DNA of 64,000 nucleotides from Trametes villosa. Taxonomy: Eukaryota > Basidiomycota > Agaricomycetes > Polyporales > Polyporaceae. The DNA is taken from the NCBI GenBank assembly GCA_002964805.2, contig PUDQ02000109.1, positions 1 through 64,000 on the forward strand, read 5' to 3'. This document shows, in pieces, positions 20,850 through 56,030 of this stretch. Position 1 is the first letter of the stretch. The number at the start of each line of letters is the position of its first letter. The notes under the pieces were generated by a model, which was not told where the DNA came from, made no database searches, and worked only from the letters and a program-made list of their open reading frames with translations. Made by a program: the position numbers and the translations under genes.

Positions 20850-20857
20850 GGCGGTGG
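20850..20857 (+). repeat. 8-bp target-site duplication, left copy
   Basis: GGCGGTGG immediately precedes the left terminal inverted repeat. The same eight bases follow the right terminal repeat at 56023-56030 in the same orientation, as expected for a staggered-cut insertion. Caution: the left flank is locally GGTGGC-rich, which raises the chance of coincidence. Confidence 0.7.
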
Positions 20858-20892
20858 AGGACCTGGGAAGATACACTAAGAGCTCACATGCC
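20858..20892 (+). repeat. terminal inverted repeat, left end of the 35-kb element
   Basis: 35 bp starting AGGACCTGGGAAGATA and ending CACTAAGAGCTCACATGCC. It matches the reverse complement of 55988-56022 with one difference (G at 20870, A in the other copy). It contains the CACTA sequence (20874-20878) that names the superfamily of the adjoining Tnp2 transposase. Confidence 0.85.
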
Positions 20893-21202
20893 ATTTTGAG
20901 GCGTTTTGGCCTATTTTCGGGGGTCCCAATCTGGTCACTTTTCGGGGATTCTCACGTAACTTGCGGCCGGCTTCGCCGGAATCGGGGGTTCGGGGCATGT
21001 AACATGTTCGTAAGCGCCCGCTTGGCGCCCGGTCGGCCGTTCTGAGACTAACGCAGATCAGGTTTTCCGGCTTCTGCTGTGCCGGAGAGCTAGTTTTTCG
21101 CCCCTCGGACGGCGGGCTGGTAAGAGTGGTGGGCCGGTCCGCCGCCCGCTGCCACGGCGAGCGGAAGGAGGCTTGCTTTCGGGGGTCCGGCATGTATCCA
21201 TC

Positions 21203-23072
21203 CACGGCGGGCAACAGGGGGGGACCCCCTGGCACTATAGCCATGTGAAAGGTGCTCCGGGCGTTTAAGTTTTGCACGCCTCTCACAGGCGTATAACATG
21301 GCAGAATAGGCAAACTAGCACGCGTCTTTGAGCGACACATACCCTAGGCGCGCGCGAGAACTATCACAAACCATATTGACGTCCGTTATAGCCTTGTTGT
21401 AGCCGTGTATATGCTGGCTATCACGGCGTGTAATAGGCATGTGCTGAATTTCCTTTTCAGGCGGTATAACAAACATGTAACTCGCAGGAATAGTCAGAAA
21501 ATCACACATCCCTCAGCCGTCCGCAACAAAGGGCTAAAGGACAACTATGTAAGGCGTATAACAACGCCATCGACACTGAGGATAGCCGTGCGACTACCGT
21601 GTCATGCCCGTGTCATAGCACTCAGCGCTGAATAACCTATCACACAGCTGGAACACTATGGTACACGCGCGTCGAAGTAATCCTGCTACAGGGCTATAAA
21701 CAAGGTGAGCATGGGTGAGATACTAATCCTATGCACACAGGGGGCTCAGGTCCTCGGCGTGACGGCGTGACGTCCGTCTAGCACCGCGATCGCGCGAATC
21801 GTCGCGCGCGCGCTCCTGGGGTCGGGGTCCGCCATGCGCAACCTCTCCCGACGTTGCTCGAGCCGCAGCCCGACGCGACACGGTTTGGAGGAGCTGCCCG
21901 ATACGCCATGCCTCGTACGGTACTGCGCAGCGAACTTGTCGCGCCGCCCACCCGCTCGCCGCGCCGCGAACCCACACAGGTCAAACCGCACCCTTCGACG
22001 CCGAATCGCTCTGCCGTGCGCTGTGGAGCACCGCGCGGGGCGTCGCTCGAATTCACACTCGGCGAGCCATGTTGCACCGCGTCAAACCGTGCGGCTACGC
22101 CCCAGCTGTAGACGGAGGCACCCCACGCGCAGCCGCGCGCCACCCCAGCGAGCCGCGCCGCGCCAATCCGCACAAAGCCGCGCCAAACCACGCCAAACCG
22201 CGCCAAACCGCACGAGGTCACACCAACGCGCGCCACCCCACCGCGCCAACTCGCGCGGCGACGCACCGCACGGCGACGCCCCGCGCGCAACCGCGCGCGA
22301 TCGCCCCACGCGGCGACGCCCCGTGCGCACCTGCGCGCCACCCCACCAAACCGCGCCAAACCGCGCCAACCCGCGCGGCGGTGCACCGCACAGCGACACC
22401 CCGCACGCAACCGCGCCCAGTCCCGCCAAACCGCGCCAAACCGCGCGGCGACGCACCACACTGCGCCACCCCGTGCGCAACCGTGCGGCACCCCAGCGAG
22501 CCGCACCAAACCGCGCCAAACCGCGCGGCGACGCGCACGGCGACGCCCGCGCCCTACCCCGCGCAACCACAACGGGCCATGACGCACCACGCCATGTCCT
22601 GCGCCGCTCTCACCCGCTGCACTCCGTCGCGCCGCACCTCGTCGCATCCCGCCGCGCACCGCCGCGCACCGCCGCACCTCGTCGCGCCCTGCGGCGCCCC
22701 GCCGCACCCTGTCGTGCCGCACCTCGTCGCACCCCGCCGCACCTCGTCGCACCCCGCCGCACCCCGCCGCACCCCGTCGCGCCGCACCTCGCAGCGCCGC
22801 CACACCCCGCCGCACCCTGTCGTGCCGCACCTCGTCGCACCCCGCCGCGCCCCGCCGCACCCCGTCGCGCCGCACCCCGCCGCACCTCGCAGCTCCTCGC
22901 CGCACCCCGTCGCGCCGCACCTCGCAGCGCCGCCACACCCCGCCGCACCTCGTCGTGCCGCACCTCGTCGCACCCCGCCGCGCACCGCCCCGCCGCACCT
23001 CGTCGCGCCCTGCGGCGCCCCGCCGCACCCCGCCGCACTTCGTCGCGCCCTGCGGCGCCCCGCCGCACCCCG
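21203..23072 (+). repeat. left subterminal inverted-repeat arm (about 1.87 kb)
   Basis: It is the near-identical inverted copy of 54113-55877. From 21203 inward the two run without indels for hundreds of bases: position p matches 77,080 minus p (for example GGCGTATAACA at 21288 and its complement ending at 55792). Further in are a few indels, including about 66 bp present only here near 22360-22430. The inner 1.2 kb is a degenerate mosaic of CCGCACCCCGC-, GCGCCAAACC- and CGTCGCGCC-like units with extreme strand asymmetry (C-rich on this strand). Long open frames across it are low-complexity artefacts. Between the terminal repeat and this arm (20893-21202) the two ends differ, though both carry TTTTCGGGGATT-type motifs. 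Confidence 0.9.
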
Positions 23073-23210
23073 CCGCACGCTCGCTGCATGGGTGGCATTC
23101 CAGGGGGGACTACTGGCGGTTAATGGCGGCTGCTGACTATCCACGCTGGAATGCCGCGGACTCGTGTTCGTCATGCTACATAGTACCACAATATACAACC
23201 ATCGAAACGA

Positions 23211-26200
23211 TCACCAGACCAGCAAAAGGCACTTCCACCCTTCAGTTCTGAGGGCAGGTATGTCAATGACTAGCTGATACGATGAAAGGGACGCGTACCC
23301 GGTCCAAAGAGCGGACGACCACACAGGCCTCTCCGATATCTGACGGCTCGTAAAAGAGTGCCGCGAAGTGTGCACGGATGTCTGTCTGCGCGAGAACCCT
23401 GGGCGATGGCTCGAAGGCGTCGTAAAACAGCCGTGTTTGAAGATCCTCGTATTGGCGGTAAGGGTCCATCCCGGCATGTAGAGGAGAAAGCGGCTTGTAC
23501 TCGTCGACTACGAAGTACGGCTCGACGATGGTCTTGCCGTCCTCGGCACGGACATGCAGAAAGATCTCTCGAATACGGCCCGCGGAAGGGAAAGTGCCGG
23601 AAGCATCGCCAGGAGACGTGAAGATGACGAACGAGTTTCGTGCTTGGCTACCGTGCGTCGAGAACTTGATCGTGTCCTGAGGCTGGAAGTCCGCGATGTA
23701 TTGGCCCGCCGTAAATAGCCTTGGCCGCTTATCGCTGTATGGGGCGAAGAGAGACGTGAATGAAGCACCGGGTATCCTCGTGATGCGATCCACCAAGGCA
23801 CTGTAAACGTCGCGAGGGAGATTAGTCGCCTTCTGAGAGTCATACTCTGGGTTGAGGGGGCCTGTATCTTCGCCATCGCCCCCGACATGGGCGGAGCGGA
23901 AATCCGCTGTTTGTGTCCCTCGGGTCGCCAGTTTGAACGCTCTGGAGAATGCCGCAACCATGGCGTGAAAAGGGGGGGCGTCTAACCACTGTAAAGTGGC
24001 GAAAAGCCATCGAAGATTGGCCCCGAGGTAGAAGTAGCGCATGAATGTAAGAGGCATCGCATCTATATCGAAGCGTCAGTAGAGTGTCATATGTTCGACT
24101 TAATCACATACTGGGCTTGCCACTGGTATTGAAGGCCTGCAGTAATCCGTTCAAGCGTTCGAATGGGAACGCCCACCAAGCGTGAACAGGACCGAAGTTC
24201 TCGAGGCACTCCTTGAGGTGAAGAGAGAGATGATGGTTAGGTACGAGGTGATGCCAGTCGAAGAGCTGCTGAAGGCCGCGTAGGTACTGGAGCATATGAT
24301 CGTCGAACCTGTCGACTTGGTCCTGATCGATAGATCTTCTTGTTGCGAGATCCACAGCAGAGACGAGGTGCACGAAGTTGTCGACCAAGGCTTTCTCTTT
24401 GGTACCAGCCGCAGAAGCGCCCCACAGACGCACCAGCGTGATGACCATGCTGACCGTACAGACAGTGCGCCAATGGTCGGCCTTCAGCTTCCCGTGAGAG
24501 GGGCTGCCAAAGTTCCGTGGGGGACGCTCCATCCAGGATGGGAGGAAGGTGTCGACGATGTCCTTGCGCAGCTGTGTGATTGCACCGTGATCGAGGATAT
24601 TGAACTTGGATATGTCGTACTGTCCTTTGACGAGGTGGAAGTTCGTTGTGGGCTCGTCTAGTACGGGCGGAATCCGTAGTTCCAGCTGTCCGCTCTTCTT
24701 CCACTAGACGTTGAAAGTTTGTGAGCGCCAGGCGAACTACCAACGTTTTTTGGAGACGTACCCATCTGATAAGTGCGTCGATGCATTTATCCTTCGACCA
24801 ATCCGCCGACTCAGGTATCGCTCCATTCAGCTCGGCAGTCGCGGCGATATATCCCTTGCGCACGCGGGTGAGCTTGCCCTTCGCGCCTTTCTTCACGTGG
24901 GCTTCGACCTGCTCGAGGAACTTCTGCTGCTCTGCTGGTAGATGGGGGCGCACTCCAGGAGAGTCGGGAGCCTTGTCCTTGACATTGATGCCCCATACGT
25001 CGCGGCAGTGATGACGCAAGGCTCCAAGGAAAAGGTTGTGCATCGCGTCAACCAGCGCAAAACGAGTGGGATCCCAGTAGGGCAGTCGCAAGAGCTCTGA
25101 CCAGCGAATGCCGTACTTGTCGAAGAGCCTCTCCCGCTCAGCCTCCGAGTCAGCGTCTCTCCACCTTTGCGCATACTTGTCGTGGTCCGCGCGACTTCGC
25201 CTCCGCCAGCTGCTTCGGTCGAGGTTATCGATGTCGGTCTTGAGCAAGCGACAGAAAGAGCAGAAACGAGTGGCCGAATGACTCGCGAAACCGCCGGTTT
25301 TCCGTAGAGCGGGGAGATCGCACACCAGAGGGACTATCGCCGCGCGTACGAGCCACCCGGAACCACTGCCGCTGAGATAGATGCCCCTGTGCCAGAGCGT
25401 TAGAAACTCGTCCACGATCGGCCGCAGGTAGTGGTTGATCCGGTGGAGCTCCGGCTCGTGGGGCCCCGGAATTACGCCCGCCAGGTAGATGTTTTCGGGG
25501 CGGTAGCGAAGGTGGGGTGGGAGGTTCAGACAGACGAGGAAAACGGCGCCGACGGAGTGCGATTTTCCCGCCTTCTTGTTCCCGTATGGGTTGAACCAGT
25601 CCACGAAGAGGCTGAAGACAAGGTGTACGGAGCCTTCTGGTTGAACCGAGAACGGAGTGCGGCCGTCTGGTCCCACGAATCGCCGGAGAAGAGGCGCATC
25701 CCAGATGTCCTTCCATCGAGATGTAGGTTGCCGCGGGACACCCCAAGCGTCGTGAGCTAGCTGCAGCAGCTCTGGACGCTTCGACAGAGTGGCGAGCCAA
25801 GGACGAACGGAATGGAAGGGGTAGTACTTCAGAGGGTTGTTATCCTTGTCAAGAAGAGGCTCCTGACATGGCCCTCTGTCCGTCTCGACGTGTTTGCATA
25901 CCTTGGGATACGGGTCCTTCGGCTTCTCTGCGTCGGGAGGATACGTGCAGTGGCATTTGGGGCAGCTCGCGTAGCGCACGATGTCAGGCTCCAGACCCAA
26001 CCGAGAAAGAACGGTTCTGATGTCCGAAGGGATCATGTCGAATAGCGTCTTCTGAGTCGCAGTGAGGGTGGCCGGGAGGCGCGACGCCAGGTTGCAACAT
26101 ACGAAAAGGCCGTAAACAACGGCCTGCAGAGTCGCCAACACGTACTGAGCGTCGAGCCGAGCAACTGCCGCTAGCGCGTGGAGGACAGCTACCATGACGA

Positions 26201-27098
26201 GACCAGCGATCAACCACGGTTCCGTGGTTCTAGCGTAGGTACCGGCGCGGTCGTCTGTGGTAGACCTCCGTGTCAGCCCAATCGTATCTCTGTGCGGCGC
26301 GGCAAGCTCACCTATCGGAACAACCAGGGGCCCTCGATCTGTAGGGAGCTTTGACAGCATGAATGTCACGATCTCCGCGCTCCAGGCTTCGAGTTTGCGC
26401 TGCTCGAGTAGCGCCACGTGCTCGTCTATCCTCTCTAAGAGAACATCCCGACGACGGTCGAGATCGCGATCCCCTATCAGCTCCATCTCCGCCAGTTGAG
26501 CACGATGCTCGTCCAAGAGACCCCGAACGCTGTAGAAGAGGGGGTTATCACCACCGTCTCCCAGGTCCGGCATCGGATCCTCGAGCGCCGTGGGCGATGT
26601 TGCGAAGCGAAAAGCCATTGTATCCGGGGTCCGCAGGCGTAGATCTTGTAGGAGCCCTTCGATTGCGCTCAGCTGCTTGAGGCGACCTTTGTGGGGACGA
26701 CGAGGTGGGGGATCCTTCTCAGAACTGTGTCAAATCTCGCAAGGCGGGAAGGGCTGGCATGTAACATACCTCCACAACGGGAGGAACTTCTTCCGCAGTA
26801 GGTGTCGGGGATCGAGGCGGCGAATCCCGCTCGACCTTCGAAGACAGTCAGCGGCGCACGGATTATACGGTGAAGATACATGCTACGAGCGACTGACCTG
26901 AGGATCATCATCTACCCCAAGATTCGGTTGGGTGAGCAAAGCCTCCGCGTCCGCATGACCCTGGACGGTTGAGGCCGACTTCCAGAGTTTACCTCGATGC
27001 CGCTCTCCGCTTCTGCCGTACCAGGAGCCTTTCCGACACTTACGGCGGCATGTGCAGAGGTATCTCCCCTCTGGAACGTCGTCTTCCGGTAGAGGCAT
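23211..27098 (-). CDS. Tnp2-family (CACTA/Plavaka-like) transposase
   Basis: The transposase of Agaricomycete CACTA-type elements, expected to bind the element ends and catalyse excision and integration in the nucleus. It begins MPLPEDDVPEGRYLCTC at 27098 with a Cys-rich N-terminus, then a helical linker. A treble-clef-like cluster CPKCHCTYPPDAEKP...CKH follows. The catalytic region contains VDWFNPYGNKKAGKSHSVGA, the stretch FCSFCRLLKTDIDNLDRSSW, and RFALVDAMHNLFLGALRHHC with its conserved Asp and His. After two short introns come GSPSHGKLKADHWR, HHLSLHLKECLENFGP and FPFERLNGLLQ. The longest exon is open for about 790 codons, and no stop or frameshift was found in any domain. Splice choice at the 3' end puts the stop at 23263 or, after removing a 50-bp intron, at 23211. 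The upstream ATG at 27248 is possible but less family-like. It reads toward the left element end. Confidence 0.9.
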
Positions 27099-27263
27099 GA
27101 TGGTAGGCACGAAAGACAGACTGCCTTGCTCGGCGTAGCCTGAGATGGCGACGATAAGAATGCGTGATGGGATGACCGTCACGCGATGTTGCCTTGCGCC
27201 TTCGAGATAGAAAAGTTGTCGATTGACATATTGACCGAATCGGTACATATCATGCTCTACGCC

Positions 27264-30205
27264 CTACGCGGGGAGTGTGCCATTAGTCTGCAGCCTAGCG
27301 TCATCCCAGAGGGGATGATCACTGGCCAACGTCTCGTTCATTCGCTCGACCACGGCTGCTTGCTGCTGGGGCTGTGGCAGGTACAACGTAGGACGACCAT
27401 ATTGAACGGTTAATGCTATGGTGATGCTCAAGACCGCCATGCACTGTGGCTCGGTAAGCTGAAAGACAGTGCGGATGGCGGGGCGTAGCTCACCAGAAAT
27501 ACATAGAGAGCTGCGCGCCGGCCTCGCGGTGACCGTTCGATTGTAATGAGTTCTTGTCGCCTCGAGTAGAGTGCCTAGAAGGTTTCACTTGTTAACCAAA
27601 CCATCGTAGGCGAAAAACACAGAGGAGACATTAGCAGGACTTACCATGCAATGTCCAAGTAAGACCAGGACGACCGCGTGGGCGAAGTTCGGTGATGCAT
27701 ACGCGGGGGGACGGCTGGGACCTGGTGCTCCAGAATGCGAGGACGCACCGGGCACAGGCGAAGAGGAACTCGATGGTGAGGCAGGGGAAGGAGTGTCGTG
27801 CGGCGGCGACGCGCCAGGCGCAGACGAGGCGGAGGGAGAGATGTCGCACAGTGGCGGCGCAGGCGAGGGGGGATCCGGGCGCGAGGGGGGATCCGGGAGC
27901 GGGGCGGGATCCGGGAGCGGGGCGGAAGAGATTGCGTCGGACAGCGGCGGCGCGCCTGGCGCAGACGAGGCGGGGCCCGAGAGCGAGGCGGAGGGAGGGG
28001 TGGCGCACAGTGGCGGCGCAGGCGAGGATGGACCCGGGAGAGGAGCGGGATCCGGGAGCGGGGCGGAGGGGAGGGTGTCGCGCAGTGGCGGCGCAGGCGA
28101 GGAGGGATCCGGGAGCGGGGCGGAAGAGGTTGCATCGGACAGCGGCGGCGCGCCTGGCGCAGACGAGGCGGGGCCCGAGAGCGAGGCGGAGGGAGGGGTG
28201 TCGCGCAGGGGCGGCGCAGGCGAGGAGGGATCCGGGCGCGAGGGGGGATCCGGGAGCGGGGCGGGATCCGGGAGCGGGGCGGAAGAGATTGCGTCGGACA
28301 GCGGCGGCGCGCCTGGCGCAGACGAGGCGGGGCCCGAGAGCGAGGCGGAGGGAGGGGTGTCGCGCAGGGGCGGCGCAGGCGAGGAGGGATCCGGGCGCGA
28401 GGGGGGATCCGGGAGCGGGGCGGGATCCGGGAGCGGGGCGGAAGAGATTGCGTCGGACAGCGGCGGCGCGCCTGGCGCAGACGAGGCGGGGCCCGAGAGC
28501 GAGGCGGAGGGAGGGGTGTCGCGCAGGGGCGGCGCAGGCGAGGAGGGATCCGGGCGCGAGGGGGGATCCGGGAGCGGGGCGGGATCCGGGAGCGGGGCGG
28601 AAGAGATTGCGTCGGACAGCGGCAGCGCGCCTGGCGCAGACGAGGCGGGGCCCGAGAGCGAGGCGGAGGGAGGGGTGTCGCGCAGGGGCGGCGCAGCGGG
28701 GAGGGATCCGGGAGCGGGGCGGAAGAGGTTGCGTCGGACAGCGGCGGCGCGCCTGGCGCAGACGAGGCGGGGCCCGAGAGCGAGGCGGAGGGAGGGGTGT
28801 CGCGCAGGGGCGGCGCAGGCGAGGAGGGATCCGGGAGCGGGGCGGAAGAGGTTGCATCGGACAGCGGCGGCGCGCCAGGCGCAGACGAGGCGGGGCCCGA
28901 GAGCGCGGTGGAGGGAGGGGTGTCGTGCTGTCGCGGCGCGATGGGACCGGGTGAGGCAGGACGAGACGATGAGGCGGAGGGGATCTCTACGCGCATAGAC
29001 TGTGCGATAGGGAGTTCACAGAACGCGTGGGCATCTTCGCTGTCTTGACTGGGGTTGCGTCTGCGCGTAGAGGGCTAGGGAGGCAATCAAGATGCGAGGA
29101 CTGCGTGTCGAGCATGACAACGAACCTGTCGTAGATCGGACCCGGTAGACCCCTTTGACTGGCTGCCCCACGACATCTCCTCGGCGAGGGACAAGACTCC
29201 CATGCTTGATGTCCCGAACGACGACTGGGTTGGCGAATCGGACGATGAATACGAGTGCGGCGAACGGTCTTTGACGCCTTGGTCGGCGTAGGGAAGATGG
29301 AAGAAGGTAGACGGGCTGCCGTAGTGTTCAGAGCTCTCAGCGCAGGGTTTTTTTTCGGCAGTCTTCTGAAGATTCACTTCGAGTTGCGTCACCCTTCCCG
29401 AGATGTCTCCTGCCCATCCCTGAATCGAGGCGAGCACATCATCGATCCCTTCCTTCCCTTGCTCGTTCTCCGCCAACTTGTGTTTCAGAACGAGAAGCTC
29501 CAGCTCCGCAGATCGCAAACGTGCTGTTAGATTCTCTACAGAATCCTCGCAACGGTCGCGGAACGCTTCGAACGTGTTACGTTCCTTATTCAGGTTGCCT
29601 CGATGCATCGTCATCATATGTCCAGGAGGAAGGATAGAACTTAGAGGGCTCTCACCTTGAGCGTGTCGATATGCGAGTTTCGCGGGGCGCGTGCTGTGGT
29701 CGCACTGTTGACGACTGTATACGATCTCCTCCTCCATTTGTACCATGCGTGCCTCACAGGCCTTCTGCTTTAGTCATCAGTCATAGGCACCGTACGAAGT
29801 CGCGGCGCACTCACCGTAGTACGCTTCAAGTCCAACACGGCTCGATACAAAGCTGCATTACAAGAATTGAGTTTCCCAAGCTCTTTCAGCGCGTCTCCGT
29901 AACGGGTCTCCCAAGCCTCGTCCCCGTCATCACGGCTGCTCGCCCCAGGAGTTAGTATGAGCCGCACATCATGAACAAGGCGAGACAACCCACGCTATCT
30001 GCTCGAGTTGTTCGACCGCTCGCGGAGAGAGTCTGTATTCCGAGAGCAGAAGTGGCGTCGCGCCACCGGAGTGGCTCTCAGCTACTGGCTCGTCCTCGGG
30101 CGAGATGTAGTAAGTCCCGCGTTGATCGTGTGACCCAAGCGGGACCGCGATACCAGATTCGTCCGCGACGGTTTCTGGTGCAGCGTTCATGGCTGGATGA
30201 GACAT
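27264..30205 (-). CDS. coiled-coil protein with Ser/Pro/Ala-rich tandem repeats
   Basis: Function unrecognised. It begins MSHPAMNAAPETVADESG. Spliced exons give heptad-rich helices (DALKELGKLNSCNAALYRAV, then ENLTARLRSAELELLVLKHK). An in-phase 51-bp intron (about 29086-29136) joins SDLRQ to PSTRRRNPSQDSED and leads into the repeats. The full unit is 53 residues, with phrases such as PPSASLSGPASSAPGAPPLS and APLPDPAPLPDPPSRPDPSS. After the array come two hydrophobic stretches (FAHAVVLVLLGHC and MAVLSITIALTV) and the stop at 27264. A 122-bp unit near 28606-28728 shifts the frame by one base, so the N-terminal part and the hydrophobic tail are not in one frame as read. The array is open in every minus-strand frame, so a stop is avoided. 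Either the unit was miscounted or the tail differs. Originally this could be two genes. Confidence 0.55.
27860..28930. repeat. GC-rich tandem repeat array, main unit 159 bp
   Basis: The landmark ATTGCGTCGG / GTTGCATCGG recurs at 27931, 28129, 28288, 28447, 28606, 28728 and 28851. The spacings are 198, 159, 159, 159, 122 and 123 bp, so three neighbouring units are the same length and nearly identical. Shorter internal GGATCCGGGAGCGGGGC motifs account for the length differences. One spacing (122) is not a multiple of three. The array is free of stop codons in most frames on both strands. Confidence 0.9.
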
Positions 30206-30436
30206 GGTCGGACAAGAAGATAGTGATCAGGATAGGATGGTGACGCCGCATTAGATGAACCCGAACCTCACAAACGACAAACATCTTTGTTTCTTGTCGA
30301 CGCGACAACGTTTGCACCAGCGTGGCTTGCGGGGACGCCTTCGCGGTATGCCACGTACGTCCGAGGCACACGTGTCGTAAACGCAGCGACGGGAGAAAGG
30401 AATTCATAACGATGACACGACGATACACAGACTCGA

Positions 30437-31941: not shown

Positions 31942-31995
31942 AAGAGCGGGAGCGGGAACAGGAGCGGGAGCGGAGGCAAACAGGAGCGGGGACTA
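31942..31995. repeat. GGAGCG-type microsatellite
   Basis: A run of degenerate GGGAGC/AGGAGCG hexamers in the 440-bp spacer between the two membrane-protein paralogues. Nothing else was recognised in that spacer. Confidence 0.7.
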
Positions 31996-43089: not shown

Positions 43090-43120
<31 letters not shown>

Positions 43121-45298: not shown

Positions 45299-45691
45299 AC
45301 CCGCGGTTGGTGGTGTATTCTATCGGGAGCAATGTTTTACATACGAGATGTTTGTGCAGATTGGTGCAAAATACTCTTGAGAGCTCGACATCTGGCCGAG
45401 GGTGAAGTGCGGCGAGAAATTGCGTCATCGTGAAGCGGCGCCCGTGCCACTCATATTTTTGGAGGCCGGCTACGCCATGTATTGTGCCGGCGTCCGTACG
45501 GGGAGAGAGAGCATGAGCTGACGAACTTCAAGGCACTGGCATGAAGCATACGGCGTAGTTGCATAGCGGAATCCGAAACATACATGAGCATATGAGATAC
45601 ATAGAGGCATATTGTAGCATAGGTGAACGTGAGCGCGCGGATCATCCATGTCCTCGCCTGCCGGAGGACCGCGGCATACAGAGAACGCCTC

Positions 45692-46993
45692 CTACGTGCG
45701 GGCGAACGCGACAGTATACGGCGCCTCCGCATCAGAAGCCGCCTTAGCGTCTTTGAGTTCGTCGTAAGCACCGTACAGGAGCTGGACAGGTCCGGGCATT
45801 CAGATGATAAGTTTCGACGTCGAGAGCGAGCTCTAGCTTACCTGTGCGGTGTGCGCACTCAGCATGCGCAGTGCCTCGAACTCGTTGCGCGCTTCTCGCA
45901 AACGACCGACGGAGACCTCGCAGCCATGAGGGCCGCACAAGGTTTGTGGGGCGACCAGGGCATCGCCTGCTACGGTCTATATAGAGTCAGGTCGACTGTG
46001 AGGACGAGAACAGAGGGGAATACTGCACCTGAAGGGTACGTAGGACAGCTTCCTGGGAGACTTTGTTGTTCTCGAGGAACTCCTTCTGAACAGCTAAGAC
46101 TGCGAGCGCCGATGCCAGCTCGGTAGTCTGGATGACTCCGGTCTGCGGGGCCATCCATGCCAAGGTCTTCGCCATGCGCAGCTGCTGGAGTTCGTCGAGA
46201 ATGCGGCGTCGTTCGTTGACAACGGAGATCAGCTTCTCGAACAGCGTCGGGATACTCTCCAACAACACGTTGGAAGGTACGTCAGCCTGGAGAGAGAGCG
46301 CCACATCCCTAAGATGGTCCTATCATCGATGTTAGCAGATATACGAGCAACGTCCAGCATCGCAAAACGCACCTTCTGCGACAAGATCATGAAGTATTCC
46401 TTCCAGCTATTCACCTTCTCTTGCATCGAGCGTTGGGCATCTTCTAACCCCACGATCGTGCCTCGAAGGTCGTCGAGCAAGCGCACGACCGCGGCGCGGG
46501 CAAATCCGCGAAGGGCGCCATCAGTAGAGCCGCGTCCGTACACGCGGCCAAGCTGATGGTGTGTAAGAGCTCAGGCTGGGTACGAAGAAGCAGCGGGCGT
46601 ACGTCGTCATAGAGCTCACGGGCTGCCTTGATACCCTGACCGGTGGCACTGATGTGTAGCAGGAGTTCTTTGAAAGGATTCGGGGGCGCGTCGCCGGGCG
46701 GCAGGAGGGTACGCAAGTACTTCGCGTCGCGCGCTAAGTCGTGTAGGATTTGGTCGCGGTATTCCTCGTTCAGTAGGTTCCAAGCGGCAGTGAAGGCCGC
46801 AGCCCAAGTATCCGGGCGTTGAGGGGGTATAACGTAGCGAGTGAGAAACCTAACATAGTCAGTGGCGAGTGAGCAAAGCTTCGAGTGGCGCTCACCTGCT
46901 CACGTCCATGTCGAGTGGGCTGGCGAGAGCCCGGATGGACTCTTCAAAGCGCTGCATCTGAATGATGGCTTCTTGAGCTGCTATTTCGAGCAT
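45692..46993 (-). CDS. soluble helical coiled-coil protein of unknown function
   Basis: It starts MLEIAAQEAIIQMQRFEESI at 46993. The exons give FLTRYVIPPQRPDTWAAAF, PFKELLLHISATGQGIKAAR, AQRSMQEKVNSWKEYFMILS, LFEKLISVVNERRRILDELQ and SVGRLREARNEFEALRMLSA, and the protein ends KAASDAEAPYTVAFART at 45692. Nearly all of it is heptad-patterned helix without a membrane segment. Three introns restore the frame exactly. Near 46548 the frame of ...TISLAA must shift by one base to continue into YGRGSTDGALRGFARAAV, or else an intron (about 46470-46550) is removed. So either an unusual splice or a recent frameshift is present. The overall helical organisation resembles the membrane-anchored gene at 33881-35230, but without its anchor. 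Confidence 0.5.
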
Positions 46994-47758
46994 CTTATAT
47001 CAGAGGATGGTTGGGAGGAAGGATGAGCGGCGTAGAGTTGACCAGGTGGGAGGAAGGATCAAGAATGAATCCTGTTGTGCCACTGGAGGTGCTCGTTCAC
47101 ATGCTGTATGACACGCTACGCGCTTCCGGTAGTAAGGCCTCGTGTTGAAGCGAGTGGCACACCTGGGCCCGCCCGTACTGTGGAATCGGGGAGAAGACGG
47201 GCGCCTCGATTTCCTCGTAGTCGTCTCCCGCCCGATAGAGCCCTCGCGGCCCTGGGTGGCGGCAATCAGCTATGCCATGCGAAATGGGACCTGTACAACG
47301 CTCGGCTTGTGCGGGAGGTAGGAACTAGGGCCACGTCGCCAGCGTAGCCTCGCAGCCACTGAGGCGCACTGTGCGTGGGCGACGGGCTCGTTTCAACGAG
47401 GATATGAATGTGCATCGCATTAGACGCCCAGACGAGCGCAAAGCCACGGCAGTGTAGAGTGCACTTCAGCATAGGGTGGGTGTCGAAGTGCCGCTTGAGA
47501 AGACAGTGTTAGTGATTGCTGGGATGTGCGGACTTCGCCGTCGTAGGCTACACCCACAGCCTCGCCCACTAGCCTATCTCACCGCGAAGCCGGCCCGCGA
47601 CGTTCCCTCTCGGTGTGCCAGATTACGAAGCGATTCTGTCGGTGCGGCAGGGCTGAAATTGTCGCCATCGGGACATATCATATTTCTCGCGCTACGTGGG
47701 GTACACCGTAGTACCACGCGCAAACTATGGAAACACTGATGACGATGAGGCTAGAAAT
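46994..47758. other. spacer within the element, no supported gene
   Basis: About 760 bp. A short plus-strand frame from about 47069 (NPVVPLEVLVHMLYDTL) faintly resembles the start of an F-box protein but stops quickly. Nothing else was recognised. Confidence 0.4.
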
Positions 47759-49180
47759 CTATGTGTTGAGCGTTAACACGGTGATCATGAGGATAGGGCG
47801 ACGTCCACGTACTCCGATGCATGACATAGTACACCTCTTCACTACGTTCCTGCGGCTCTGCGGGTCCCCTTGATAGAAAATCAGCCTAAAAATCAAACGG
47901 TGGAAATCAAGCGACGTACGAGCAACCCAAAGCACAACAGATGCGGGTGCTCCCGCGTTGGCGATACCCGTCGCGATTAGGAACCGATCAGTGGCGTCGT
48001 CGTAGTTGGCCTGCAGCGAACGAGCTTCAGCTTGAGGCACAGACATACAACACGAGAAACGTACCGCGATAGCCATGATATTATTCGCAGCTGAAAAGGC
48101 GTGATCATCAGGAACAACCGGGCTCTTGGAGGACGCACCACCGAGAGAAAACCTTTGATGAACCCGGGCGTTATGTATGTTCCATAGATGTGCCACGCCC
48201 ACAGTGCTGCCGCCGAGCAACGCGTGGCCACCGTGGACAAACATCACCGGTACCGCCCGAAGTGCGCCGACGGGGTGAGGGAACGCCTGGAACGACTCCT
48301 GGGAAGTTAAGTCATATAACTCGAAACCTGAGACCATATTCGAGATGGCGATTGTCGTTCCGTCTGGACTGACGCTGGCATTGGCGCTGCAACGTACACG
48401 TTGTGAGTAGCGCAGTCCGCAAGGGAGATAATCGAGGGCATACATGGGACTTGAGATTGGTATATGTCGCACTAGAGTCCAGTTGGTGCTATCGAAGATG
48501 CTACACCGAATCATTAACCGGGAATCTGAGGGAGAGATCGGAAGACCTACCCGACACCATGATGCATGTATGTGACCAGCAGGAAAGACGAACGAGGCAT
48601 CCAGTGAATACTGGTGACCAGTACCTCGCTCCTCTCGTTCAGACTGTTGGTGGGCGGCCTGACAAGATCGACGGCATGTCTCCATTGACCTGGGGAGGGG
48701 AATGTAACGATGCAGATGATTCAGAGGACTGACTCACGTTTCTGCCACGCCCATATCGCCACGTCGCTATGTGCTCCGGATGCAAGGGACGACCCTTTCA
48801 CCGCTAGGTGTTCGATCGGATATTTCTGAGCCCAGAAGCCTGTAACGTTGAAAGTTTTCTGAAGGTACGCGTTAAAAATGGCTGGCTTTTGTAGAGGAAT
48901 ACGCACGTACCGGAGTGAAGGATACCGACAACAGCACTCCGCCATGGGAACCGCATACGAAGGCGTCTTCGCGCCCGGGTAGCCAGTGCAAACATAGAAC
49001 AGCCGAGGAGCTCTTGTGAGTGTAGAGGAGTTTTAGATCGGCGACTCGCCAGATGTAGACTGTGCAGTCCACGACTCCTGCTGTGACGACGTAAGTACCT
49101 CGGCAGCTCAGTGCAACGGCGGATACGCCATTGACATGGCCCCGTTTGAGGCACCCGAGCTTCTCATAGCGGAGAGCCAT
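47759..49180 (-). CDS. WD-repeat (beta-propeller) protein, Agaricomycete family
   Basis: WD repeats form beta-propeller platforms for protein interaction; the partner is unknown. It starts MALRYEKLGCLKRGHVNGVS at 49180, with the first blades AVALSCRGTYVVTAG plus CTVYIWRV, and LCLHWLPGREDAFVCGSHGG. The next exons give YPIEHLAVKGSSLASGAHSD then VAIWAW, a later SIFDSTNWTLVRHIPI, ASVSPDGTTIAISNM with GFELYDL, and HGGHALLGGSTVGVAHLWN. At least six blades can be traced over about five exons, as in a family often seen in multiple copies in polypores. The last exons (to LMITVLTLNT at 47759) carry a hydrophobic tail that may be a membrane anchor. A 20-codon upstream ORF (ATG at 49226) overlaps the start. 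Confidence 0.75.
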
Positions 49181-49441
49181 GAGGGGTCGTGGAATCAAGG
49201 ATGTCGTGCGTCGAGAGATCCTCCATGACGAAGCGGTATCGGGAGAGGCATGGCGGGGGTAGCCGGATGTATGAACAAAGGAAGTATGTGCTACAAGCGC
49301 CCATCGCGACCGCTTCACGAAACGTTAGCGCTGAGCACTGACCCTCCATCCCTCCAACACGATCAAGGGCAGCCAGTACGGCTAGCAACTATACTCATAA
49401 AATTCGCACCTCACAACCAAACCTCGAGTCATCAAGCCGAG

Positions 49442-50494
49442 ATGCCCAACAAAGATACGGGACCGCGAGACCCCTTTTCCGATCGCTTCGTATACGAGGA
49501 AACTTCTCTATCTAGTACGAGATTCCTGACTACCTGTGTCTACGACTCCGCTGACGTTGTAAACGACGAAGCAGGGGGGAATAAACCACACCCAAATCAG
49601 CCCGCGGAAACCCGCCAGGCATTGGCAGCTTCGCGAGCGCCTCATCGCGCTCCAAGTGGTGGTCTTCGCTGGGGATTCCCCGTCATCACCATTGCTCTCG
49701 TCACCCTGTTCTCCCTCGCCTTCGCTACCCTGGTGTCGCAGCCTGTAGCTGGCGTTTGCGAGGGGCTCCCTCCTCGTACGTGGTCCGCGAAGCTTAGCAT
49801 ATGGACCGTGGAGCTGCATGTGCGATCTTGCAAGGAGGAACGCCTCTCGGCCGACATCCAACCTGCAGGCGGCGTCACCGCTACTTCTAGAGCTCCTGCT
49901 CGACTTCGAGACTTCGCACTTCACACCGATGGTGGGAGAGTCTGGGACGACCTCACGTCCACCCGGGCCACGCACGATCTTGCCGAGTCGCGGGTTCCTA
50001 TACATCCTCCGGAGATCGCCCTTACGGAGGATATGCGTGTTGGGAGCTGCTGGATGCTCTCCCAGGCCAGCGGCCAGCTGGGCATCGTCCTCCCCGCACT
50101 TATCCACCCAACCAACGTGACCATCGACCACATACCTCTCGAGATCGCACCCGACATCGGGCAGGCCCCCCGCCACATGTTGTTGTGGGGAGTGGTAGAC
50201 GGCAAGACGAACCGTGAACTCCATCGCGGCTTCATGAACGCGTATACCGCTTCCACACCCCCCGCGCTCCATGACGCGCCGAGACGCTCGCAAGGCCTTA
50301 CTCACGCACTCTTGGCGGACTTCATGTACGATATCCGCGCGCCATCCCACATCCAAACCTTCTCTATCGACCCCCTCGTCAGCAACTCAGGCATGTCCTT
50401 CGGCCTCGTGATATTGGAGATCTTGGACAACTGGGGTAGTACGCAAACGTGTCTCTATCGAGTACGTATCCACGGAGATGTACTAGCACAGTAG
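49442..50494 (+). CDS. membrane-anchored SUN-domain protein
   Basis: SUN domains sit in the lumen of the nuclear envelope or ER and bind KASH or other partners. This intronless gene encodes 350 residues from MPNKDTGPRDPF at 49442 (the frame is open to an ATG at 49250, but that part lies in the WD-gene promoter and looks non-conserved). One membrane helix (FPVITIALVTLFSLAFATLV) follows an N-terminal tail of about 75 residues. The C-terminal SUN domain has CWMLSQASGQLGIVLPAL, HPTNVTIDHIPLE, APRHMLLWGVVDG, a long insert, FMYDIRAPSHIQTFSID and LEILDNWGSTQTCLYRVRIH, the canonical end of the fold. The order and the Trp-Gly near the end match SUN domains well. It is divergent from the WD gene (260-bp spacer). 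Lack of introns is unusual here and might reflect retroposition. Confidence 0.85.
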   Translation: MPNKDTGPRDPFSDRFVYEETSLSSTRFLTTCVYDSADVVNDEAGGNKPHPNQPAETRQALAASRAPHRAPSGGLRWGFPVITIALVTLFSLAFATLVSQPVAGVCEGLPPRTWSAKLSIWTVELHVRSCKEERLSADIQPAGGVTATSRAPARLRDFALHTDGGRVWDDLTSTRATHDLAESRVPIHPPEIALTEDMRVGSCWMLSQASGQLGIVLPALIHPTNVTIDHIPLEIAPDIGQAPRHMLLWGVVDGKTNRELHRGFMNAYTASTPPALHDAPRRSQGLTHALLADFMYDIRAPSHIQTFSIDPLVSNSGMSFGLVILEILDNWGSTQTCLYRVRIHGDVLAQ

Positions 50495-51184
50495 ACGCGC
50501 TGCACAACAACCTATGTCCGTTAGACAGCCGGCCTCGGGTTTGAGCCACTGACATTATGCCTCAAAGACTTCAGCCGTACAAAGCTTACCTACTAGCAAG
50601 TGCATAGAAGAGATGCGCCTGATAATCCAGGCATTCTCAATGTATAATACCCCTTCAGTCCCTTTCTCAAGTTTACCTTCAAATACCCCGGCTGTCTAAC
50701 GGACGTCCCACTTTCACACCATTCCACCCGTCGCTCCCATGAGCCACTCACCTCCTATCGAATTCCCGAACAATAGCACCGGTTTAATAGGAGGTAGGAC
50801 TTTGCCGTACTTGTCATCCATTCTTCGCTCACCCAGGGTTTCCAGGGACCTATCCAGTCGAATCTATCCTGGGCGGAAAACGTGCCATCCCCGGTAAAAG
50901 CGCCCACATCTTCAAGAACGGCAAACTCCCGAAAATGGCTGAAGACGTAGGTGCCGCGAGCAACTGTTGCGAGCTCGTCCACGTCTAACCATCTCCACGC
51001 AAAGTCCACTGTTCAGCCGCTGAGCCTAGCGTCTCCACCACCGAAGGTAACCGTCTCGCGAACCGGCCAATCCCAGTACTGACCGAAACTGTGGCGTAGT
51101 CACGTCCTACCCGAGGCCGGAAGCTCTCTCGACACCCCGGACAGTTCAATTTTCGACTCCAGCCACCAGCAAGCTCCTCACAAG
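50495..51184. other. spacer with an orphan minus-strand exon-like frame
   Basis: About 690 bp. The minus-strand frame 51009-50755 (FAWRWLDVDELATVARGTYV ... RFDWIGPWKPWVSEEWM) has protein-like composition, but it lacks an ATG and no neighbouring exon was found. It is probably a gene relic. No other feature is supported. Confidence 0.35.
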
Positions 51185-54000
51185 ATGTCGGTGGACCTGT
51201 ACCACCCTCCTCACAGCATATTTTCCAGCTTCAGCTTCCGAACAACACGCCCAGCGATCGCACTCCTGCTCAGTCTCCTGGCCGACAGGTCTTCAACACC
51301 TCGTTCCCCCCGCCGTCGCAGTCCAGCGAGCAGACGCCTTCGTCACAGCATACTTTCCAGCTTCAGCTTCCGAACAACACGCCCAGCGATCGCACTCCTG
51401 CTCAGTCTCCTGGTCGACAGGTCTTCAACACCTCGTTCCCCCCGCCACCGCAGTCCAGCGAGCAGACGCCTTTGGGCAGTACCTCCTTGGTACGGGCGAA
51501 CAGTCATGATCAGTCTATCCGCTAACGTGGTTGGTTGTAGGAAGCATCCTATCAAGATGCTACTCCGCGGGCGCATCGTGCGCTCATCGCGCAAGTCCCC
51601 CTGCCTGCCATGAGCCACCCTCCGGTACAGCCTAGGGCGTCCCCTGCTGTCTCTGAGGCTCCGCAGAGTACGCTGCAGCACCAACCACCGATGCAGCAAG
51701 GAAGCGCACCATCAACCATGGGAACTGCTTCAACGGCAGCGTACCTCCATGAGGACCTGATCATCACTATCCAACGGGAGTATCTGGCGCAGTACCAGCG
51801 GGTTGTGGTAAGATCTACGTCTCTTGCTCGTCTATGGTCACTGACGGTATTGGATAACATCCAGTCGAGCGACGAAGCTGTACAGCGGTGGGCGACCTTC
51901 AGCGAAAGCGACCGCGCATATATGCTGCAGCGTTATGATCATTACATAGCCGAGGCGCACTGGTATCGAATGCAGCAGGCATCGCTCGCCCAGCGAGAGC
52001 TCTCGCAACCCCAGGCCGGTGGCGCCCGTGGACAATTCCCCGCTCCACAGGGTGCCTTCACCTTTGCTGGGCAAACGGCTTTTCCTCTTCGCCAGGAGCC
52101 CACGACAATGTCCTCCCAACCGGTGACGGAGTCTACTATGCAGGTGGATCTCGGTCACGGTCAGATGCCCTCCAATAGTACCCTTTCTAGGGACTGGTCG
52201 CTCTCTACCGTGTCTTCTCTGGACGGCCTGGGCCTGTTGCGGATGGAGGACGTCGTCCAATCGGCGACACCGCATGAGGAACAGCCGGTCGCAGGTGAGC
52301 AGTTTCTCGGAGCTTCTACACCGCGTCCGTTACCGATAACTCATCGCTACGTCGATTACTTTAGGCCCATCTCGCGAAGCCGTCCCTGAAGACGTTGAGA
52401 ATGAGCGCTCTTTGATCGCTGTTGACAAGGGCAAGGTGAGAAGCTCTTACCGATGGCGCTATCCACACTCATATCTTCTAGCGCCGAGCGGTGTCTCCCT
52501 CGGGGAGCGACGCCTCTACTATCATGAACGAGGATGACGTTTCCAGTTCAGCGTCGTCGCATCCCTCTGCAATTCGTCAGGACGTGAGTACGGTTGAGAT
52601 GCGACGTATTGCTTCTGCTCACGCCGCCCTATGCTAGCCCGGAGACCAGTCTGGTTTCATCAGCTCGGATTTCGGGATGTTGATGATGCAGCAAATGCAA
52701 GGCTTTCGCAATGCGTTCGAGACGCAGGCCATGATGATGAAGCAGATGCACGAGAACAACATGCGTTTTCAGTGCGTCGTGCGTATCATATCTGACGGCC
52801 TCGATTACTGACCAGCGGGCTTAGGGAGATGCTCTCGCGGGAGCTTCAGGACCTGAAGGGGAACACGGAGTCTCGCGCGACAGGCAATGAGAGCCCTTCG
52901 GCTTCTCACTCATCGCCCCCGTCGTCGTTCATGAAGAGTACTCGCACCGTGGCCTCCGACAGGAAGGTCGAGATACGCGTCGCGAAGGCGCTAGGGGTCG
53001 AGCCTGAAATCACCCCGGAGGCGGTCGACGACGCGGGGCGCAACACGCTACGGGTGAGATAAACGTACTAGGGTTGCGTTTGACCGCTGCTAATCCAACT
53101 TCTGCAGGAGTATCTTCACGCGCATGTGTTGGCGTTGCTCAACATCCCCAACACGTCGAAGCTCGCCGAGCGGTTCCCTCCCTTGACCGAGGACGAGGTG
53201 ACCTCCTACGAGGAGCAAGATGGCACGTTGGTGTGCACTCCGGAGGAGTACCGCATCGATTTTCAACACGACTGGAAGGGGTTCTCGTTCAACGCCGAGG
53301 CGAGAGCCATCGCGATCTCGACATTCCTCAAGAAGGCGGAGAGCGGCGCGTTCGCCGCGAAACCGATTCTCGGCCATCTGTTGAACGCAAAGGACGTCGG
53401 CAAAGCTCTCGATCGCTACATGGTCCATCTTCGGCGCACCTATCGTGCCCAGCTCAACCCTCCCAGCGAAGAGAAGAAGCGCGAGGTGCAGCGCGCCGCA
53501 GCGAAGACCTCTCGCCAGGGCACCGTGAGTTCATCTTTATTGTCGCATGGGCCACTCAAATAACGTGGCCGTAGCTGTATCGCAGTAGGCGTTTCGTCGT
53601 CGTCCGCGTTCCTCGCCTGGGACGGCACCGCATCTTATTCACGCGGCTGTCGGCGTGCAATATGAGCGGCGATGAAACGGACGGGACAGCGGTGAAGTCC
53701 CCGGCGAAATACCGCATGGTCCTCGCGGATTGGCAGAGCAAGCCGTTGCGCACGTTCTTCTGGGGCGTCGACCAGAAGTACATCGCTTACTGGGAGAACC
53801 CACCCAAGGGCAAGCGGAGGACGCAGGGCAACGGCATTCGAGTGCGTATCCTCTCTCCTGACTGTCGTACCGTACCCGGGACCGCGCCGCCGGGCCTGTG
53901 GCGTAATTGCTACAACCCGGAGTGGCTGGCCAAGCAGAGCGACTGGCAGGTTGAGTTACTTGGAATCATCGACGAGGACTATGACTTTAGTTTGGATTGA
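51185..54000 (+). CDS. transposon-associated protein next to the right arm
   Basis: Function unknown; probably the second gene of the element. The start is uncertain: ATG at 51185, but the frame joined by splicing (QLQLPNNTPSDRTPAQSPGR) opens upstream of it. An N-terminal Gln/Pro/Ser-rich part contains a 132-bp duplication. It is followed by ITIQREYLAQYQRVV, HYIAEAHWYRMQQASLAQRE, Met/Gln-rich helices (LMMQQMQGFRNAF, MMMKQMHENNMRF) and a C-terminal folded part with REYLHAHVLALLNI, DWKGFSFNAEARAIAISTFL, RRTYRAQLNPPSEEKKREVQ, ADWQSKPLRTFFWG, and NCYNPEWLAKQSDWQVELLG just before the TGA at 53998-54000. The final 'GL..N.Y..EWL' ending recurs in multi-copy Agaricomycete ORFs found near transposons, as recalled. 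Six or so introns. It reads outward into the right arm, mirroring the transposase. Confidence 0.6.
51211..51474 (+). repeat. 132-bp tandem duplication in the coding sequence
   Basis: The segment beginning TCACAGCATATTTTCCAGCT (51211) is repeated from 51343 with only a few changes. The 132-bp period (44 codons) preserves the reading frame. Confidence 0.9.
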
Positions 54001-54112
54001 AGCATGTATTGTCTTGTTCATTTTGTATTGTGCTCAGTATCGTATGTTTGCAACATGGCGGGTCTTTCGTTGTCTCACGAACTAGTAGGCTATGCGACAG
54101 AGCGACATGAGA

Positions 54113-55877
54113 CGGGGTGCGGCGGGGCGCCGCAGGGCGCGACGAAGTGCGGCGGGGTGCGGCGGTGCGCAGCGGGGTACGACGAGGTGAGGTACGACGG
54201 GATACGGCGGGGTGTGGCGGCGCTGCGAGGTGCGGCGCGACGGGGTGCGGCGAGGAGCTGCGAGGTGCGGCGGGGTGCGGCGCGACGGGGTGCGGCGGGG
54301 CGCGGCGGGGTGCGACGAGGTGCGGCACGACAGGGTGCGGCGGGGTGTGGCGGCGCTGCGAGGTGCGGCGCGACGGGGTGCGGCGGGGTGCGGCGGGGTG
54401 CGACGAGGTGCGGCGGGGTGCGACGAGGTGCGGCACGACAGGGTGCGGCGGGGCGCCGCAGGGCGCGACGAGGTGCGGCGGTGCGCGGCGGTGCGCGGCG
54501 GGATGCGACGAGGTGCGGCGCGACGGAGTGCAGCGGGTGAGAGCGGCGCAGGACATGGCGTGGTGCGTCATGGCCCGTTGTGGTTGCGCGGGGTAGGGCG
54601 CGGGCGTCGCCGTGCGCGTCGCCGCGCGGTTTGGCGCGGTTTGGTGCGGCTCGCTGGGGTGCCGCACGGTTGCGCACGGGGTGGCGCAGTGTGGTGCGTC
54701 GCCGCGCGGTTTGGCGCGGTTTGGCGCGGTTTGGTGGGGTGGCGCGCAGGTGCGCACGGGGCGTCGCCGCGTGGGGCGATCGCGCGCGGTTGCGCGCGGG
54801 GCGTCGCCGTGCGGTGCGTCGCCGCGCGAGTTGGCGCGGTGGGGTGGCGCGCGTTGGTGTGACCTCGTGCGGTTTGGCGCGGTTTGGCGTGGTTTGGCGC
54901 GGCTTTGTGCGGATTGGCGCGGCGCGGCTCGCTGGGGTGGCGCGCGGCTGCGCGTGGGGTGCCTCCGTCTACAGCTGGGGCGTAGCCGCACGGTTTGACG
55001 CGGTGCAACATGGCTCGCCGAGTGTGAATTCGAGCGACGCCCCGCGCGGTGCTCCACAGCGCACGGCAGAGCGATTCGGCGTCGAAGGGTGCGGTTTGAC
55101 CTGTGTGGGTTCGCGGCGCGGCGAGCGGGTGGGCGGCGCGACAAGTTCGCTGCGCAGTACCGTACGAGGCATGGCGTATCGGGCAGCTCCTCCAAACCGT
55201 GTCGCGTCGGGCTGCGGCTCGAGCAACGTCGGGAGAGGTTGCGCATGGCGGACCCCGACCCCAGGAGCGCGCGCGCGACGATTCGCGCGATCGCGGTGCT
55301 AGACGGACGTCACGCCGTCACGCCGAGGACCTGAGCCCCCTGTGTGCATAGGATTAGTATCTCACCCATGCTCACCTTGTTTATAGCCCTGTAGCAGGAT
55401 TACTTCGACGCGCGTGTACCATAGTGTTCCAGCTGTGTGATAGGTTATTCAGCGCTGAGTGCTATGACACGGGCATGACACGGTAGTCGCACGGCTATCC
55501 TCAGTGTCGATGGCGTTGTTATACGCCTTACATAGTTGTCCTTTAGCCCTTTGTTGCGGACGGCTGAGGGATGTGTGATTTTCTGACTATTCCTGCGAGT
55601 TACATGTTTGTTATACCGCCTGAAAAGGAAATTCAGCACATGCCTATTACACGCCGTGATAGCCAGCATATACACGGCTACAACAAGGCTATAACGGACG
55701 TCAATATGGTTTGTGATAGTTCTCGCGCGCGCCTAGGGTATGTGTCGCTCAAAGACGCGTGCTAGTTTGCCTATTCTGCCATGTTATACGCCTGTGAGAG
55801 GCGTGCAAAACTTAAACGCCCGGAGCACCTTTCACATGGCTATAGTGCCAGGGGGTCCCCCCCTGTTGCCCGCCGTG
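54113..55877 (-). repeat. right subterminal inverted-repeat arm (about 1.77 kb)
   Basis: Inverted, nearly identical copy of 21203-23072. It is shorter by about 105 bp through internal indels in the low-complexity part. The arm begins only about 110 bp after the stop codon of the gene at 51185-54000. Between the arm and the terminal repeat (55878-55987) lie three TTTTCGGG-type motifs absent in that spacing from the left end. Confidence 0.9.
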
Positions 55878-55987
55878 CATCCGGCCTGAGGGTCATTTTC
55901 GGGATCTAAGCTGGGGCTCTCCCGGCCCCGTTTTCGGGGATTTGCATGTAACTTTTCGGGCCCTCCGGGCCCATTTTCGGGGATTCC

Positions 55988-56022
55988 GGCATGTGAGCTC
56001 TTAGTGTATTTTCCCAGGTCCT
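55988..56022 (-). repeat. terminal inverted repeat, right end of the 35-kb element
   Basis: Reverse complement of 20858-20892 with one mismatch. It reads GGCATGTGAGCTCTTAGTG followed by TATTTTCCCAGGTCCT. Confidence 0.85.
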
Positions 56023-56030
56023 GGCGGTGG
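56023..56030 (+). repeat. 8-bp target-site duplication, right copy
   Basis: GGCGGTGG, identical to the eight bases at 20850-20857. On the right the flank beyond it (CGACACACG) is not GGTGGC-rich, which favours a true duplication. Confidence 0.7.

Follow-up and report, generated by a model that had tools for sequence, protein, structure and literature searches.

Evidence for a giant CACTA/EnSpm-type transposon with a recurring SUN-domain gene, nested in a short inverted-repeat element of Trametes villosa

Bases 1-64000 of contig C106 from the polypore Trametes villosa (PUDQ02000109.1, 79,006 bp; the genome comprises 46.7 Mb in 140 contigs, denoted here by C and a number) constitute the stretch that we refer to as the window. 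A first-pass annotation of this window had proposed a Starship-like cargo carrier of about 35 kb, run by a DDE-type transposase. Our analysis leads with high confidence to a different arrangement, in which a miniature inverted-repeat transposable element (MITE) of about 490 bp is interrupted at 21203-55877 by a giant and probably autonomous transposon of the CACTA/EnSpm type. The giant appears to belong to a lineage in which four genes recur together, encoding a Tnp2-type transposase, a small-domain protein (G4), a SUN-domain protein and a conserved protein designated R (Table 1).

The whole unit is framed by 35-bp inverted ends with one mismatch (20858-20892 and 55988-56022) and by GGCGGTGG on each outer side, precisely where the first-pass annotation had placed them, although it took both features to be the giant's own. 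The genome search with these ends that it had recommended recovered at least 11 other short elements with both ends, each of 486-498 bp (these lists of MITEs are lower bounds), and two further places on C3 that match at one end only. Five of the copies form a close subfamily (on C32, C1, C110, C10 and C33) and six a more distant one (C58, C43, C39, C20, C16 and C1:337 kb). As expected of MITEs, these are short elements with common ends and a constant length of duplication, the 8-bp duplications being perfect in all seven copies examined (five close and two distant). The five close copies align to the left 345 bp and the right 145 bp of the 20858-56022 unit, with small insertions or deletions elsewhere, and carry a single 4-bp motif at the join (CATC in C32, C110 and C10, AATC in C1 and CATT in C33), the window counterpart of which is CATC-giant-CATC. 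The two diverged copies examined are likewise uninterrupted across the insertion point of the giant. These uninterrupted copies indicate that the 35-bp ends and the 8-bp repeat belong to a MITE that has been interrupted. Both MITE subfamilies, of about 490 bp, show AGGACC(T/C) ends and 8-bp duplications.

The giant proper is 34,675 bp in length, both of its ends start with CACGGCGGGCAACAGG, and its termini read CACGGC...GCCGTG. Its long terminal inverted repeats (TIRs; 21203-23032 and 54113-55877) correspond to the inverted arms of about 1.8 kb that had been recognised at first pass; they are 94.7% identical over 1836 aligned columns, and complementarity reaches 98% over 1247 nt of their outer part that align without gaps. 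A pattern derived from the inner ends (CACGGCRGGCAA, 5-30 bases, ATAGCCATG) has four matches in the 46.7-Mb genome, which are the termini of C106:21203-55877 and of a sibling element at C116:35847-63192, and none in a reversed control, so the inner ends are not a matter of chance. When CATC is taken as the duplication of the giant, the ends become symmetrical. The first-pass annotation had named arms bounded by ends and duplications of their own as an outcome that would count against it, and this is nearly what is found, the arms carrying their own ends and a short duplication. We rejected a reading of the arms as two separate insertions, since together they form the inverted termini of a single unit that has siblings elsewhere in the genome. 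It would be conceivable that a single transposon spans 20858-56022, with 35-bp TIRs and an 8-bp duplication, and that the elements of about 490 bp are its internally deleted derivatives, since the ends and duplication do frame the whole unit and an empty allele described below lacks all of it and has one GGCGGTGG. However, the at least 11 other two-ended elements are all of 486-498 bp despite falling into two divergent subfamilies, and in the seven examined the join coincides with the position in the window of a long-TIR unit that has its own ends and a 4-bp overlap. Moreover, the siblings on C116 and C88 possess the inner ends and have no MITE ends among the matches listed in the genome search. 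We therefore rejected the MITEs as deletion derivatives, and give this single-transposon explanation hardly any credence. For the calling of element boundaries more generally, perfect ends and duplications may be those of a small element into which a large one has inserted.

Two sibling elements carry the same type of ends, with no MITE end among the matches listed at either. The element at C116:35847-63192 (27,346 bp) is collinear with the giant, at about 67% DNA identity in matching stretches; its own TIRs are 97% identical over 1556 positions and TGA is present on its flanks. The second, at C88:88525-110046 (21,522 bp), agrees with the giant in its first 12 bases, is flanked by CCT on both sides, and has TIRs that are 99.35% identical over the 1384 bp compared. 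The 12-bp end pattern alone is not diagnostic, because a reversed control gives 18 matches against 33 in the genome, of which six are the termini of the C106, C116 and C88 elements; no ends of further relatives were found with it in the genome. When the flanks of the C116 element are joined with one TGA, they match C28:6441-7172 (99%) and C1:8998960-8999692 (98%). Both matches span the junction and are equally long on the two sides (732/732 and 733/733, respectively), and more copies match less well. Since its flanks have several uninterrupted copies, the C116 element sits inside a multi-copy repeat. This repeat is separate from the elements discussed here and is represented on C28, C1:8998960, C123, C140, C10 and C14.

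The empty site with a single GGCGGTGG that had been predicted at first pass is also present in the assembly. The joined C106 flanks match C33:1741022-1742425 as one piece at 92%, with an exact junction and a single GGCGGTGG, and we read C106 as carrying the insertion and C33 as the empty allele on the other haplotype, without MITE and without giant. At this site C106 and C33 differ by about 8%, and C106 would seem to represent the alternative haplotype of C33; the assembly is thus likely to contain parts of the two nuclei of a strain that is dikaryotic or heterozygous. The joint presence or absence of MITE and giant between the haplotypes, together with the perfect outer duplication, would also be accounted for if the giant had entered the MITE elsewhere and the transposase acting on the 35-bp ends had later moved both here together. 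This would require the MITE system to move 35 kb, whereas a haplotype difference of about 8% leaves time for two insertions, and no second copy of MITE plus giant occurs among the matches listed, which are a lower bound. Such a composite movement is in our view very unlikely.

The transposase of the giant is encoded by an open reading frame (ORF) at 24240-26729 on the reverse strand, which runs for 830 aa with no stop and matches PF02992 (E=5.7e-17, Pfam), in keeping with the apparently intact Tnp2-type transposase of the first-pass annotation. The D, D, CxxC and H motifs are conserved at all 12 transposase loci compared (with C-S-L-C instead of C-S-F-C in one). The exon with the E motif aligned at 10 of these loci and has the motif at each, although its surroundings are divergent in one. 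Termini of the CACTA type, 5'-CA(C)...(G)TG-3', occur as CACGGC...GCCGTG in the C106, C116 and C88 elements, and the duplications are in the range of 2-5 bp, typically 3 bp, that characterises the superfamily (TGA in C116, CCT in C88 and CATC, with 3-5 bp possible, in C106). In a study of rust fungi, EnSpm elements are likewise described with 5'-CAC...GTG-3' ends and duplications of about 3 bp (Kojima 2025, PMC12730594). By termini, duplication and predicted transposase the giant thus fits the description of CACTA/EnSpm (CMCT) elements, and the earlier claim that this basidiomycete carries a giant DNA transposon of the DDE type is supported by the Tnp2 frame, the element's own ends and the empty site. 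An assignment to Plavaka was rejected, as PF18759 reaches 14.3 bits against a cut-off of 26.3, and the Plavaka ends given in the same study (TGT..ACA or CATCA..TGATG; PMC12730594) differ from those of the giant.

Genes related to the SUN gene are present at 16 loci in the genome (in 17 match rows, of which the window contributes two), with no stop inside any row. R is located downstream of SUN on the same strand and within 5 kb at 12 of these loci, while G4 lies upstream at 13, within 2 kb and on the same strand at 11. A transposase is found further upstream, on the opposite strand and within 23 kb, at nine loci (C106, C116, C88, C47, C18, C3, C24, C1 and C5), and all four genes occur in order at eight of the 16. 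Within the nine elements that have both, transposase and SUN give correlated pairwise identities (Mantel r=0.806; 0/9999 permutations) and the closest relatives are the same for both proteins (C106 with C116, C88 with C47, C3 with C18, and the group of C24, C5 and C1). The transposases of these elements have diverged to about 50% identity while SUN has been retained. Most of the internal genes, including a SUN copy that has long been kept, are best read as genes of the element family itself. Extra partial R-like matches were observed at C116:48057-48344, C88:107742-108122, C47:370152-371137 and C1:5728985-5729230, which suggests that R may duplicate inside elements. A further segment, C33:77-6316, copies the G4-SUN-R end of the C1 element (C1:5723756-5729999), with a nearly identical SUN part, and is possibly an allele or a recent copy of that end.

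We predicted 11 genes within the giant, a number fairly approximated by the "about a dozen" of the first-pass annotation, in the order transposase (-), G2 (-), G3 and G4 (-), G5 (-), an F-box-like gene (-), two models without matches (-), G6 (-), SUN (+) and R (+); G3 and G4 contain related small domains. The models are home-made in hand-picked regions and their domains were assigned by Pfam. That conserved core genes lie on the outside, as had been noted, holds for four of the 10 flank ORFs scanned, which carry CNOT1, PGM/PMM, PRP38 and IPP transferase domains. The description of the internal genes as unrelated cargo does not stand: the C116 element matches stretches of every gene group outside 38.2-47.9 kb, in the same order, four of the genes recur at other loci as well, and this recurrence in order marks them as the element family's own. 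Only about 9.7 kb of the giant (38.2-47.9 kb) is missing from C116. This segment looks like optional cargo; we found no long inverted ends of its own, only three short imperfect pairs, and a search of the genome at E<=0.001 revealed no second copy of the F-box-like gene within it. An M20 peptidase reading of the model at 45.7-47.4 kb was rejected as it has no Pfam match, and marginal Pfam matches to DUF1258, FPP, DUF7801, Cas6b_C, TSC22, PAAT-like and APG6_N were discarded. Relatives of G5 without a nearby SUN match occur at C10:2013627-2014848, about 2.4 kb from a MITE, and at C24:835779-836721, and may represent a host source or another element.

The large size and the variable segment, with its F-box-like gene found nowhere else in the genome, are what might be expected of a Starship-like carrier, a giant vehicle that collects unrelated host genes by chance. 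Set against this are the recurrence in order of the other gene groups in C116, and of four genes at further loci, and the divergence of SUN, which tracks that of the transposase. In addition, no tyrosine recombinase was detected among the window ORFs and models scanned with Pfam, a set that did not include every small ORF, which agrees with the first-pass observation on this point; the two terminal genes of the giant encode the Tnp2 transposase and R, with no captain. A tyrosine-recombinase element was rejected on this basis, and with ends, TIRs and a transposase of the CACTA type, the label "Starship-like" does not suit the element. We consider a Starship-like origin unlikely, and retain the CACTA/EnSpm assignment.

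The SUN ORF of the window matches PF07738 (E=4.9e-19, Pfam) and the structure of SUN1 (3.7e-14), and a profile of 18 SUN sequences matches SUN2 structures with both domain halves covered (E=1.7e-33). In the window protein an N-terminal hydrophobic segment precedes a C-terminal SUN domain, as is required of SUN proteins at the sequence level. The segment is also clear in the database relatives P0006, P0008, P0011, P0017 and P0027 but not in the others scanned, among which several are annotated as partial or begin late. Twenty SUN relatives outside this genome each contain PF07738, three of them only at E 1e-5 to 2e-4, and those from named species belong to Pilatotrama, Trametes, Ganoderma and Lentinus. 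Relatives of R were found in Trametes and Earliella (one search scored the 8000 best candidates). A predicted protein of Trametes sanguinea (P0027) combines a SUN region with an R region in a single model, pointing to adjacency of the two genes in this species too. Exons at 50866-50934 and 51017-51061 match the start of the R relative P0022 (E=1.4e-6), and R accordingly starts near 50.8 kb. Comparison of R with known structures gave no significant match (best E 0.28), and no Pfam family scored above cut-off when the relatives P0021 and P0026 and the window exons were scanned.

Several observations weigh against this interpretation, in addition to the composite movement considered above. The C33 allele lacks MITE and giant together, so that movement of the giant alone is not demonstrated at this site. 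The duplication of the giant at C106 can be read as 3, 4 or 5 bp (CAT, CATC or CATCC) because of neighbouring Cs. The empty allele of the C88 element is imperfect and that site only partly resolved, as the left flank matches C27 (98%) whereas C27 lacks about 358 bp of the right flank next to the junction. With regard to the core, R was undetected at four of the 16 SUN loci (C5, C20 twice and C1:4943879), and G4 lies on the other strand at C116 (9.6 kb) and C106 (17 kb), unlike at the other 11 loci. No transposase is in the expected place at seven of the 16; among these, the contig ends on the transposase side in C114 and C33, no transposase is shown in C72 and C52, and at C20:633033 it is on the same strand as SUN, contrary to the pattern. 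G2, G5 and G6 are no more than candidate core genes, G5 being matched only at C106 and C116 among the SUN loci, and the gene models are predictions. In the profile alignment the element protein has about 8 residues fewer in a loop of SUN2 that we take to be the KASH lid, so that the KASH binding of this protein, a putative resident of the nuclear envelope, may differ.

It might also be supposed that SUN, R and other genes are inert passengers, captured once and without a role in the life cycle of the element. SUN loci without detected R, or without a transposase in the expected place, are compatible with this, as is the fact that roles for SUN and R are deduced from sequence. Yet none of the 17 SUN match rows contains a stop, and SUN was retained as the transposases diverged. 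Between C106 and C116, nonsynonymous differences per site (pN) are lower than synonymous ones (pS) in all 12 segments of seven genes (pN 0.132-0.337, pS 0.585-0.801), although the segments were chosen from protein-level matches, which favours conserved stretches, and the synonymous sites are near saturation; the pattern supports constraint without measuring it. We regard the passenger explanation as doubtful.

Table 1. Features of the interrupted MITE and the nested giant element in the window.
Feature	Position	Strand	Remark
Left 8-bp duplication GGCGGTGG of MITE	20850..20857	+	
Left piece of interrupted MITE, 345 bp, begins with 35-bp TIR	20858..21202	+	Alignment to 5 intact MITEs
CATC, left short duplication of giant	21199..21202	+	3-5 bp possible
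Giant CACTA-type element, 34,675 bp, ends CACGGCGGGCAA...	21203..55877	+	
Left long TIR, GC-rich subterminal repeats	21203..23032	+	
Tnp2-type DDE transposase gene, model 1235 aa	23137..27440	-	First and last exons uncertain
Transposase main exons, inside ORF	24240..26729	-	E-motif exon 24112-24703
GC-rich tandem repeat array (159-bp unit and others)	27828..28939	.	
G2, coiled-coil-like protein	29016..30284	-	Also in C116 element
G3, hydrophobic segment and small domain related to G4	30437..31872	-	
G4, small domain	32061..33220	-	Near 13/16 SUN loci
G5, membrane/helical protein	33612..36077	-	Among SUN loci, matches only at C106 and C116
Segment without C116 counterpart, putative cargo bay, ~9.7 kb	38210..47905	.	
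F-box-like gene (F-box match below cut-off)	39418..41460	-	No other copy found in genome
G6, WD40-repeat protein	47751..49180	-	Also in C116
SUN-domain gene; N-terminal hydrophobic segment, C-terminal SUN domain	49377..50494	+	Frame stop 50492-50494
R, conserved protein, MSGDETDG motif	50827..54000	+	Start approximate; last intron of model probably wrong
Right long TIR	54113..55877	-	
CATC, right short duplication of giant	55878..55881	+	
Right piece of interrupted MITE, 145 bp	55878..56022	+	
Right 8-bp duplication GGCGGTGG of MITE	56023..56030	+	

Both strands of the tandem arrays at 27828-28939 show long open frames, probably as artefacts of composition, and a 30-bp GC-rich tandem repeat is located at 36377-36692, between G5 and the variable segment.

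By analogy with CACTA biology, the DDE transposase would cut the giant at its CAC...GTG ends and TIRs and paste it with a duplication of about 3 bp. In plant CACTA elements TnpA binds the subterminal repeats, and R could perhaps be a TnpA-like protein that binds the GC-rich subterminal repeats of the giant. The SUN protein might tether the element, its complex or the excision break to the nuclear envelope, and the WD40, F-box-like and other genes may be helpers or passengers. It is possible, although we advance this tentatively and at less than even odds, that a giant CACTA lineage of polypores has co-evolved with its own SUN, R and G4 as transposition machinery, in which tethering of the element or of excision breaks to the envelope would affect repair, target choice or passage between the nuclei of the dikaryon; a role of SUN in the dikaryon is a further guess. 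A SUN tether would have a plausible use, given that Kms1, a component of the linker of nucleoskeleton and cytoskeleton (LINC) complex in fission yeast, antagonises recombination and mutagenic end-joining at repetitive genes (PMC12632457). A long-kept SUN gene in a mobile element thus provides a testable link of transposition with nuclear-envelope and LINC biology. The element also shows that basidiomycetes harbour DDE cut-and-paste elements as long as 35 kb in which a core of several genes recurs, so that "giant" need not mean "Starship".

A search by title and the start of the abstract, in mainly open-access literature, found no report of a transposon-encoded SUN protein, and no SUN-carrying element appears in the extracts seen of PMC8290104 and PMC10799480. 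Very long basidiomycete elements have already been catalogued, as the Marasmius oreades transposable element library is reported to contain elements of up to about 42 kb, of a type not stated there (PMC9674265). Starships, which are reported also in the basidiomycete Tremella fuciformis (PMC13066641), resemble the present element in that it is giant, polymorphic between haplotypes and equipped with a variable gene segment, but the latter has a DDE transposase, long TIRs and mostly recurring genes, and no captain was recognised. Enlarged EnSpm elements of 16-20 kb with 4-5 ORFs in Chondrus crispus (Kojima et al. 2013, as quoted in PMC6431247) are likewise members of the CACTA superfamily with extra ORFs; by that brief description they differ in belonging to a red alga, in being smaller and in that no SUN is mentioned. 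Fungal KDZ, EnSpm and Plavaka elements that carry TET/JBP genes (PMC12730594) provide a precedent for fungal DNA transposons, EnSpm lineages included, with a gene for a host-type protein, although the extra gene is in our case SUN and not a TET/JBP dioxygenase. The element protein shares with SUN1 and SUN2 of the LINC complex a C-terminal SUN domain after an N-terminal hydrophobic segment, but is transposon-encoded and short, with one loop shorter in the alignment. In common with CACTA/EnSpm (CMCT) elements, the present ones possess a Tnp2 transposase with D, D, CxxC, H and E motifs, CAC...GTG ends, duplications of about 3 bp and GC-rich subterminal repeats; they are distinguished by a length of 21.5-34.7 kb with up to about 11 genes, by TIRs of at least 1.4-1.8 kb and by their SUN, R and G4 core.

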